DNA of 33,614 nt from Actinomycetota bacterium (GTDB taxonomy: Bacteria; Actinomycetota; Acidimicrobiia; Acidimicrobiales; CADCSY01): the NCBI GenBank assembly GCA_004366205.1, contig SIRW01000067.1, positions 1-33,614 of the forward strand, given 5' to 3'. The notes beneath the pieces are model-generated. The model was not told the DNA's origin, searched no databases, and was given only the letters and a program-made list of their open reading frames with translations. Below are positions 29,132 to 31,917 of this stretch, piece after piece; the first letter of the stretch is position 1, and each line of letters starts with the position of its first letter. Both the position numbers and the translations under genes were made by a program.

Positions 29132-30001
29132 ATGCGCCGCCCACCCGAGGCTCCGCCCCGCATCGTCGGGCAGCCGGCACGGCAGGAGCGGACCGTGGGC
29201 GGGCGTCCGCCGCGGCCGGGGCGGCCCGGCGTCGACCTGACGGCGCTGCGGGAGCGCACCCGTCCGGTCACCCTGGCCGGTGAGCACGCCCTGCCGGTGG
29301 CGCCTGCGCTCGGGCCGCTCGTGCCCGGGGGCCGGTTGCGCCGGGGCACCACCGTGGCGGTGACGGCCGCCCCGGCGGTCGGTGGAGGTCCCGGCCGGGG
29401 GCGGGCCGCCGCTGGCGGCGGTGCAGGTGCGACCGGCGCACGGGGCGTCACGACCCTGGCGCTGGCCCTGGCGGGTGACGCGGCCACCGCGGGCTCGTGG
29501 GTCGGGGTGCTGGGCCTGCCCGACCTGGGCGTGGAGGCGGCGCTGGCGGCCGGGCTGGCCCCCGACCGGCTGGTGGTGGTCGACGCTCCTCCGGCGGCGT
29601 GGGCCACGGCGGCGGCCGCGCTGGTCGACGCCCTCGACGTGGTGCTCGTGGGCCCGCCGGGTCGGATGCGGGCGGCCGACGCCCGGCGGATCCTGACCCG
29701 TGCCCGCGAGCGGGGGGCGGTGACGGTGGTGGTCGGGGCCGCCGGCCTGGGCGGGCAGGCCGCCGACGTCGCCCTCACGGTGACGGGCAGCACCTGGTAC
29801 GGCATCGACGGCGGGCACGGTCACCTGCGCGCCCGTCGTGTCGAGGTGGTGGCCGGGGGACGGGGCGCGGCGGCGCTGGAGCGCCGGGTCGCCCTGTGGC
29901 TGCCTGGTCCTGACGGGCAGGTCGCGCTGGCGATCGCCGAGGACACCGACCGCCGGCACCAGCAGGAGACGGCCCCCGGCAGGTTGCGGCAGGTCGGCTG
30001 A
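29132..30001 (+). CDS. imuA': ImuA' -type mutasome protein (RecA-like)
   Basis: A 289-residue protein of the actinobacterial ImuA' group, a RecA-related partner of ImuB in translesion mutagenesis. It has the family N-terminus (VDLTALRERTRPVTLAGEHALPV, about 34-56) and the start of the RecA-like fold (GGRLRRGTTVAVTA, 67-79). There is a degenerate P-loop region GAGATGARGVTTLALALAG (97-115), then GSWVGVLGLPDLGVEAA and GLAPDRLVVVDAPP (141-154). A Gly/Arg/Ala-rich insertion (about 83-103) loosens the P-loop, so ATP use is doubtful. The ATG at 29132 lies 6 nt after the -10 box. The stop shares one base with the imuB start (TGATG). Confidence 0.85.
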   Translation: MRRPPEAPPRIVGQPARQERTVGGRPPRPGRPGVDLTALRERTRPVTLAGEHALPVAPALGPLVPGGRLRRGTTVAVTAAPAVGGGPGRGRAAAGGGAGATGARGVTTLALALAGDAATAGSWVGVLGLPDLGVEAALAAGLAPDRLVVVDAPPAAWATAAAALVDALDVVLVGPPGRMRAADARRILTRARERGAVTVVVGAAGLGGQAADVALTVTGSTWYGIDGGHGHLRARRVEVVAGGRGAAALERRVALWLPGPDGQVALAIAEDTDRRHQQETAPGRLRQVG

Positions 30002-31917
30002 TGGCGCCAGGTGCCCGACGAACGGGGTGGGGGCCGGGGCAGGGGCGGCAGGCGGCGGCTCGATCCGGTGGGCCTGAGGTGGCGCCGGGCGTGCGGACCC
30101 TGGTGGTGTGGTGCCCCGACTGGCCGGTGGTGGCCGCCGGTGTGGCGGCGGGCGAGGCCGCCGCCGTGGTGCATGCCAACCGGGTCGTCGCCGCCTCGGC
30201 GGCAGCCCGGGCCGAGGGCGTCGCCCGGGGGCTGCGCCGGCGGGAGGCCCAGGGGCGGTGCCCCGGCCTCACCGTGCTCGCTTCCGATCCGCTTCGTGCC
30301 GCCCGGGCCTTCGAGCCGGTGGCGGCGGCCGTGGCCACCCTCACCCCCCGGGTCGAGATCGTGCGCCCCGGCCTGCTGGCGTTCCCCACCCGCGGCCCCT
30401 CCCGCTACTTCGGCGGCGACGAGGCGCTGGCCACGCGGGTGATCGCCGTCGTCGACGGCGCCCTGGACGCCCAGGGCCTCGCCAGCGCCTGCCGGGTGGG
30501 CGTGGCCGACGGCCCGTTCGCCGCCACCCTCGCCGCCCGGGCCACCCTCGACCCCGGGGTCGGTGGCGGTGCCGGTGCCGGGGGCGGTGCCAGTGGCGGT
30601 GGCGCCGCCCGCACGCTCGTCGTGGCGCCGGGCGCCACCCCCATGTTCCTCGCCCCGCTCCCCGTCACCGCCCTCGGCAGCGCGCTCGACGGCGGCACCG
30701 ACGGCAGCGGGCTGGTGAGCCTGCTGCGCCGGCTGGGGATCACCACGCTGGGTGCCCTCGCCGCCCTGCCGGCTGCCGACGTCCTCGCCCGTTTCGGCCC
30801 CATGGGTGCGCGCGCCCACCGGCTCGCTCGGGGCGAGGACGAGCGTCCGCCGGCCGTCCGGGAGGTGCCGCCCGACCTCATGGTGGCGGCTGAGCTCGAC
30901 CCGCCGGCCGAACGGGTCGATGCCGCTGCCTTCGTGGCCAAGACCCTGGCCGACGACCTGCACGAGCGGCTGACCGCCCGGGGTCTGGCCTGCGCCCGGG
31001 TGCTGGTCGAGGCCGAGACCGAGCACGGCGAAGGGCTGTCACGGCTGTGGCGGCACGAGGGTGCGCTCACCAGCCGGGCGCTGGCCGAACGGGTGCGCTG
31101 GCAGCTCGAGGGCTGGCTCACCGGCCCCGTCGGCGGGTCGGGCTGGGCGGGGCGGCCCAGCGGTGGGATCACTCTGCTGCGGCTCGTGCCCGACGAGGTG
31201 ACGGCCGCGCGGGGCCGCCAGCTCGGCTTCTGGGGTGGTGCCACCGAGGCGGCCGAGCGCGCCGCTCGGGCCGTCGCCCGCCTCGAGGGACTCCTGGGCC
31301 CCGACGCCGTGCGGATCCCCCGGCCCCGGGGCGGCCGGGGCCCCGGTGAGGGCGTCGTGCTCGTCCCCTGGTCCACCGCCGAGCCCCTCCCCCCACACAC
31401 ACCGACTCCTTCCGCGGCGCGTTTTATCGATTCACCCACCGAATCGTCCACCGAATCGTCCACCGAATCGTCCACCGAATCGTCCACCGAATCGGTCACC
31501 GAATCGGTCACCGAATCGATAAAACGCGCCGCGGGGGGAGTGGGTGCAGGGGTCGGTGGCGGGCTGGGGTGCCGGGGCGGGTGGATGGCGGTGCCGTGGC
31601 CGGGGCGGTTGCCGCCGCCGGCGCCGGCGGTCGTCCACCGCGATCCACCGGCGGCCGAGGTGGTCGACGCCGCCGGGCGACCCGTCGGGGTCACCGGCCG
31701 GGGTGAGGTGACCGCTCCGCCCGCTCGGGTGTCGATCGGTGGGGCGGCGTGGATCGACGTCGCCGACTGGGCCGGCCCCTGGCCTGCCGACGAGCGGTGG
31801 TGGGACCCGCCCGCCCACCGCCGCCGGGCCCGGGTGCAGGTGGTGACGGCGTCGGGCGTCGCCCACCTCCTCGCCCGGGAGGCCGGTCGTTGGCGGGTCG
31901 AGGCGACCTACGACTGA
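30001..31917 (+). CDS. imuB: ImuB: catalytically inactive Y-family polymerase with in-frame repeat insertion
   Basis: A 638-residue Y-family polymerase homologue of the ImuA'/ImuB/DnaE2 mutasome. The palm begins VRTLVVWCPDWPVVAAGVA, where active enzymes have D-x-D; the later catalytic SxDE motif is missing (VEIVRPGLLAFPTRG), so it should not polymerise DNA. Helix-hairpin-helix (LRRLGITTLGALAALPAADV) and little-finger regions follow, and the typical ImuB C-terminus (VADWAGPWPADERWWDPPAHRR, here in two parts) ends it. Two low-complexity insertions are visible: Gly/Ala at about 187-202, and the palindromic repeat element at about 471-512, which adds repeated TESS/TESV. ATG at 30001 shares a base with the imuA' stop; GTG at 30091 is an alternative. 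Its last 10 nt overlap the convergent kinase gene. Confidence 0.9.
   Translation: MAPGARRTGWGPGQGRQAAARSGGPEVAPGVRTLVVWCPDWPVVAAGVAAGEAAAVVHANRVVAASAAARAEGVARGLRRREAQGRCPGLTVLASDPLRAARAFEPVAAAVATLTPRVEIVRPGLLAFPTRGPSRYFGGDEALATRVIAVVDGALDAQGLASACRVGVADGPFAATLAARATLDPGVGGGAGAGGGASGGGAARTLVVAPGATPMFLAPLPVTALGSALDGGTDGSGLVSLLRRLGITTLGALAALPAADVLARFGPMGARAHRLARGEDERPPAVREVPPDLMVAAELDPPAERVDAAAFVAKTLADDLHERLTARGLACARVLVEAETEHGEGLSRLWRHEGALTSRALAERVRWQLEGWLTGPVGGSGWAGRPSGGITLLRLVPDEVTAARGRQLGFWGGATEAAERAARAVARLEGLLGPDAVRIPRPRGGRGPGEGVVLVPWSTAEPLPPHTPTPSAARFIDSPTESSTESSTESSTESSTESVTESVTESIKRAAGGVGAGVGGGLGCRGGWMAVPWPGRLPPPAPAVVHRDPPAAEVVDAAGRPVGVTGRGEVTAPPARVSIGGAAWIDVADWAGPWPADERWWDPPAHRRRARVQVVTASGVAHLLAREAGRWRVEATYD
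31406..31540. repeat. Palindromic element with 22-bp perfect inverted repeats around 12-bp tandem repeats, inside imuB
   Basis: Arms 31412-31433 and 31513-31534 are perfect reverse complements (core GCGCGTTTTATCGATTC). The pairing extends outward through CTCC (31406-31409) and GGAG (31537-31540), with two T/G positions between that would be G-U pairs in RNA. The 79 bp between the arms are ACCCACC plus six 12-bp units (31441-31512): four GAATCGTCCACC and two GAATCGGTCACC. The right arm itself opens with GAATCG, the start of the unit. The arms include TTTTAT/ATAAAA, unlike the surrounding very GC-rich DNA. The reading frame of imuB stays open, and both strands encode similar peptides of the form ARFIDS...SIKRAA. 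Confidence 0.95.
31441..31512 (+). repeat. Six tandem 12-bp repeats (GAATCGTCCACC / GAATCGGTCACC)
   Basis: Four identical GAATCGTCCACC copies (31441-31488) and two GAATCGGTCACC copies (31489-31512), back to back. Because 12 is a multiple of 3, copy number can change without breaking imuB; each copy adds four residues (Thr-Glu-Ser-Ser or Thr-Glu-Ser-Val in phase). Confidence 0.97.

Follow-up and report, generated by a model that had tools for sequence, protein, structure and literature searches.

We found that the palindromic repeat inside the imuB coding sequence is one of at least 14 copies of a repeat family spread over the 3.44-Mb genome, which is probably a dispersed DNA element, specific to this lineage, non-autonomous and able to form a hairpin, that works in the manner of the Rickettsia palindromic elements (RPEs) and has an interior of 12-bp tandem units. 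The copies are dispersed and built alike, those in genes reside in frame, their arrays have grown locally, and orthologues in relatives have empty sites. Eight copies carry two caps (C38, C50, C51b, C52a, C52b, C63, which is the imuB copy, C98 and C108), four carry one (C34, C51a, C76 and C93a) and two carry none (C93b and C7), the capless ones being recovered through array searches.

Structure of the imuB copy and of the family

The imuB copy lies in the window, i.e., the whole 33,614-nt stretch of DNA analysed here, within a 638-aa ORF for a Y-family polymerase-like protein (30001..31917, plus strand), in a variable linker 5' of the conserved PWPGRLP motif and the C-terminal domain. Its left arm or 5' cap (31412..31433, plus strand) is one half of a perfect 22-nt inverted repeat, CCGCGGCGCGTTTTATCGATTC, whose core GCGCGTTTTATCGATTC is common to copies genome-wide, and the right arm or 3' cap (31513..31534, minus strand) is its exact reverse complement, as a previous reading made from the sequence only had claimed. 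Between the arms lies a 79-nt array of 12-bp units of the form CGAATCG-NNNAC (31434..31512, plus strand), with the spacers CCCAC, TCCAC (four times) and GTCAC (twice) and with eight CGAWTCG heptamers within the arms; the earlier count of exactly six units has to be corrected to 6.6 for this interior, while TRF reports 6.9 copies with a 97% match. The core element of 113 nt (31417..31529, plus strand), in canonical orientation and sense to imuB, folds into a single hairpin (RNA mfe -51.7, z -8.0). Translated in the frame of the 638-aa ORF, with which it is in phase, the array reads ARFIDSPTES(STES)4..ESIKRAA (insert peptide ARFIDSPTESSTESSTESSTESSTESVTESVTESIKRAA), and the minus strand is open across it with the similar peptide ARFIDSVTDS..ESIKRAA, both of which the sequence-only reading had recognised. 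The adjoining C-rich left flank (31367..31416, GC skew -0.57) and G-rich right flank (31530..31579, GC skew +0.57) are partly extra linker in comparison with orthologues, and once they are counted an imperfect inverted repeat reaches about 59 nt per side. In an AlphaFold model of ImuB (19 sequences), confident domains lie on either side of the insert and residues 463-540, comprising the insert and its flanks, have a pLDDT below 50. The insert is thereby predicted to be disordered, in keeping with a passenger loop located in the linker 5' of PWPGRLP, and its peptide is most likely carried as a passenger without being a functional part of ImuB.

The sequence-only reading had anticipated that a genome search with the arm and the 12-bp unit might return dispersed copies, and such copies were indeed found, both in other genes and between genes. 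With up to three mismatches allowed, the 18-nt arm has 20 matches in the genome, compared with none for a reversed-pattern control and 0.00 expected from shuffles of the window, and all 20 cap sites adjoin a CGAWTCG array at exact 12-bp spacing. Exact 17-nt arms are expected about 2e-5 times genome-wide from base composition, and the occurrence of the arm is thus far beyond chance. The 14 copies, each shorter than 165 bp, are located on 11 contigs and have unique flanks.

The canonical form of the element is GCGCGTTTTAT-CGATTCA-CCCAC-[CGAATCG-NNNAC]n-CGAATCG-ATAAAACGCGC, in which the caps are an inverted 11-bp pair (GCGCGTTTTAT/ATAAAACGCGC) and the inverted match extends over 17-22 bp in eight copies. 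When oriented, all eight two-cap copies start with GCGCGTTTTAT-CGAWTC[A/G]-C[C/A]CAC and end with GAATCGATAAAACGCGC; their first heptamer is CGATTCA, CGAATCA or CGATTCG and their first spacer CCCAC (CACAC in C38), and the later spacers comprise five bases, mostly NNNAC. This conserved first unit and common reading order make the element polarised although its ends are inverted. The unit heptamer CGAWTCG is a near-palindrome conserved at all three codon positions, with Ser codons that are always TCG or TCA, and across 113 heptamers the 12-bp register is never broken by an indel, even in intergenic copies. Moreover, spacers are more alike within arrays (0.644) than between them (0.584), a difference reached by none of 2000 shuffles, and several arrays (C38, C76, C98) show a 24-bp alternation, which together show growth of the arrays by local duplication of whole units in blocks of 12 or 24 bp.

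Each of the eight two-cap cores forms a single long hairpin (z -5.7 to -11.6), the folds of partial copies are less distinctive, and the GC content of the element (57%) is well below the background of 74-75%. The cores measure 113, 125, 137 or 161 nt, always 2 modulo 3, so that residence in frame calls for an additional base (modulo 3) upon insertion; in all three of imuB, lipBA and aftD, GCN completes the codon that follows CGC, yielding ARF..KRA. On the sense strand, the caps are free of stop codons in two of three phases.

Furthermore, the left flank is C-rich and the right flank G-rich in eight out of eight two-cap copies, with a skew difference that random positions match in 0 to 0.7% of cases. 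The mean skew of -0.63/+0.63 at the element fades over approximately 160 bp to the left and 100 bp to the right, and some of the flanking sequence in imuB and aftD is additional in comparison with orthologues. Pairing of flank with flank beyond composition was not significant. The skew might belong to the element, reflect a preference at insertion or have been left by later mutation; such flanks are atypical of MITEs and count against our preferred reading of a dispersed DNA element.

Residence in genes and empty sites in relatives

Nine of the 14 copies reside in genes, all nine with the reading frame kept, and five are intergenic, located between co-directional neighbours and in at least one case between an apparently divergent pair. 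The two-cap copies in genes are found in the linkers of imuB and of a fused lipB-lipA ORF (lipBA) and in a loop of an AftD-like GT-C arabinofuranosyltransferase (aftD), the remaining five being the intergenic ones. The other genic copies are hosted by fabH, at a variable turn (by alignment to PDB 8vd9); by homogentisate 1,2-dioxygenase (hgd, named by sequence and orthologue, the fragment having no Pfam match); by an ECF sigma factor, where regions 2 and 4 lie on either side; by an alpha/beta hydrolase, at its C-terminus; by a TlpA-like lipoprotein, in its N-terminal linker (C51a); and by a ThpR-like phosphodiesterase, at its N-terminus. The inserts examined in this respect (imuB, fabH and the sigma factor) sit at tolerant, surface or unstructured positions. 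Eight of the nine genic copies are in the phase where GAW TCG encodes Glu/Asp-Ser, the sigma factor reading Arg-Ile-Gly-Asp; at least eight of nine in one phase, given two open phases, has a P of 0.02. Every copy that has lost at least one cap lies in a gene (6/6, versus 3/8 of the two-cap copies; Fisher p 0.03), and this confinement of cap loss to genes fits trimming by selection there.

Several host loci show features of their own. LipB and LipA are a single fused ORF in most family genomes (L179; family loci L180-L207). The TlpA/AhpC-like lipoprotein that hosts C51a (L140:2463-3095, minus strand; G000 contig C51) has an in-frame TGA exactly where the first Cys of its CxxC motif is expected (SPY-TGA-TTC), the domain being otherwise intact, possibly reflecting a selenoprotein or a nonsense mutation; the RNA fold 3' of this TGA was no better than shuffles. 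One array unit contains an ATG (GATTCGATGACC, at L146:6860-6979 in a minus-strand gene), so that translation of the ThpR-like gene could start within the element. Additional homogentisate dioxygenase fragments, one of them 93% identical, lie at contig ends (G000:C40:2-220 and G000:C97:2-139), perhaps owing to a split gene or to strain variation in the assembly.

An alignment of imuB orthologues had been proposed as a check by the sequence-only reading, and the insert proved to be missing from the orthologues of the same family (18 orthologues aligned). Likewise, fabH orthologues in 11 family genomes lack the insert, at which solved FabH (PDB 8vd9) shows a 15-residue gap; relatives have VVLDAVEGPGQLLGWDLG at this site and the host genome has VVVESVGDSVGDSVGDSVGDSVGREGLLAWDLG. 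The hgd orthologue of one relative and the family orthologues of lipBA and aftD are without insert as well. The closest genomes compared belong to other genera, so that gain of the insert is a parsimony argument, and the fact that linkers vary anyway counts against reading the empty sites as insertion.

Elsewhere, we detected no copy of the element in 11 other family genomes, and only isolated low-complexity or chance matches in 197 genomes of the order, where array matches (G016, G058, G063, G136 and G150) were set aside as single low-complexity coding stretches or chance. Among 394 genomes of the class, the only matches outside the host genome carried three mismatches and are read as chance. 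Exact arm matches on GTDB contigs (25) and viral contigs (22) were lone arms in unrelated taxa with no unit adjoining and were likewise dismissed as chance; the phages scanned contained no copy. A BLAST search with a synthetic array returned no match, the query probably being masked as low complexity. Overall, a lineage-specific element is the best reading of these scans, the collections of which may omit near neighbours of the host genome. In Cupriavidus metallidurans (NC_007974.2:698473-698523; L260:1502-1551) we noted that a NifQ-like gene carries, in frame at its 3' end, four tandem copies of a 12-bp repeat, CGAATCAGCCAT/CGAATCGGTCAT, that closely resembles the unit and has no caps. E/D-S peptides are encoded on both strands of this array, which might be either a convergence or a distant relative.

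Origin of the copies and competing explanations

We propose that the copies descend from one ancestral element, which would have moved as DNA, probably via its hairpin form and with the help of an enzyme acting in trans. After insertion, the array would lengthen locally in 12-bp (four-codon) steps that leave the frame unshifted. Because the units equal four codons and the caps can be read through in two sense phases, copies in flexible linkers would be tolerated and expressed, as a Thr/Glu/Ser-rich disordered peptide, and in genic copies the caps would be trimmed later. The sequence-only reading had also considered a MITE, of which the terminal inverted repeats and the dispersal stand; but inspection of the C-rich/G-rich flanks yielded no clear target-site duplication, and none of the 20 cap sites borders a transposase-sized element in this assembly of 119 contigs. 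A more far-reaching idea, which we regard as tentative and rather doubtful, is that mobile inverted caps together with a frame-keeping 12-bp array constitute a new coding transposable element, a fold-back minisatellite. If this were true, it would enter genes whose loops then lengthen or shorten by four residues, and the switch from C to G skew would be a mark of insertion or of hairpin-driven DNA repair.

It appears unlikely that the arrays are functional DNA sites, in which CGAWTCG dyads are kept by selection as targets of a regulator or a chromosome-organising protein specific to the lineage. The conservation of the heptamer at its codon positions, the exact register in intergenic copies, the perfect caps and the strong hairpins would all agree with such a role, but young copies account for the conservation equally well, the hosts and positions seem unconnected, the former ranging from repair, lipoylation, fatty acid synthesis and tyrosine breakdown to a sigma factor, and the copies lie in coding regions as well as in co-directional and divergent gaps with no shared neighbour. 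It is more improbable still that the arrays arose in place by slippage of native Thr/Ser/acidic linker codons and resemble each other by convergence. Native sequence near the fabH and hgd arrays is indeed unit-like (VVLDAVEG, AAEEVT), and T/D/S-rich coding arrays also exist at the G063 locus and in the Cupriavidus nifQ-like gene; however, slippage cannot account for identical AT-rich 11-bp inverted caps at eight places, five of them intergenic, nor a polarity and first unit common to the copies, nor the other phase in the sigma factor (RIGD), and the intergenic two-cap copies contradict it, leaving it applicable only to the two capless arrays.

We ascribe a similarly low, or even slightly lower, probability to an element acting at the RNA level, in which the hairpin, copied between genes for this purpose, would terminate or attenuate transcription or stabilise the mRNA. 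Although the hairpins are strong and single and the intergenic copies lie between genes, there is no T-run 3' of the stem and no Rfam match, C38 is located between apparently divergent genes, and full hairpins occur inside imuB, aftD and lipBA; a terminator in particular was rejected in view of the missing T-run and the varied gene orientations. Finally, it is hardly conceivable that the insert is native imuB sequence or an artefact of assembly: the linker does vary in all imuB orthologues, yet these lack the insert and 14 short copies are dispersed over 11 contigs with unique flanks, each below 165 bp.

Comparison with known systems

Rickettsia palindromic elements have been described as 100-150 bp repeats in pre-existing ORFs whose frame stays intact (PMC3767692), and a review treats them as fusions in frame that contribute conserved peptides (PMC10969869). 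For Wolbachia and Methanocaldococcus jannaschii, palindromic insertions that keep the frame of unrelated genes are mentioned as cited work in PMC2996958, which also describes the PARCEL unit of 25 residues (75 nt), amphipathic and located in dedicated ORFs. RPE-1 to RPE-3 and others are, like the element reported here with its cores of 113-161 nt, palindromic, dispersed and in frame in genes, and the resemblance suggested by the sequence-only reading therefore holds for the mode of working (dispersed, nine out of nine genic copies in frame). In contrast to RPEs, the element has a 12-bp tandem interior, a length varying by 12 and a polarity, and it resides in a high-GC bacterium that, judging from its GC content and relatives, belongs to another phylum and, from its GC and gene content, is probably an actinobacterium, whereas the RPE host is an intracellular alphaproteobacterium; the likeness is one of description. 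The palindromes of Wolbachia and M. jannaschii, from other organisms and compared by description, are in frame as well, and none of them is known to us to contain a 12-bp array.

PARCEL repeats are also translated tandem repeats with dyad symmetry, but the unit found here measures 12 nt (four residues) instead of 75 nt, is hydrophilic and capped, and is located in housekeeping genes. MITEs and REPINs share the short dispersed inverted repeats, for which a tandem interior is unusual, and the canonical ends carry no GTAG or CGTC tag as in REP/REPIN sequences. The foldback elements of Drosophila, eukaryotic and much longer, have inverted ends associated with short tandem repeats and are alike in anatomy only. 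In the literature, mainly that outside subscription journals, we found no account of the element sequence or of a 12-bp version. To our knowledge, in-frame palindromic elements are known from Rickettsia, Wolbachia and one archaeon, with a mode of movement that is not settled. In this respect, the two-cap, one-cap and capless stages together with the empty sites would allow insertion, array growth and cap loss to be told apart, and the family would illustrate how short DNA repeats can provide core enzymes such as FabH, LipB-LipA and ImuB with disordered peptide. It would represent a second independent in-frame palindromic system, in a bacterium of presumably another phylum than that of the RPEs.
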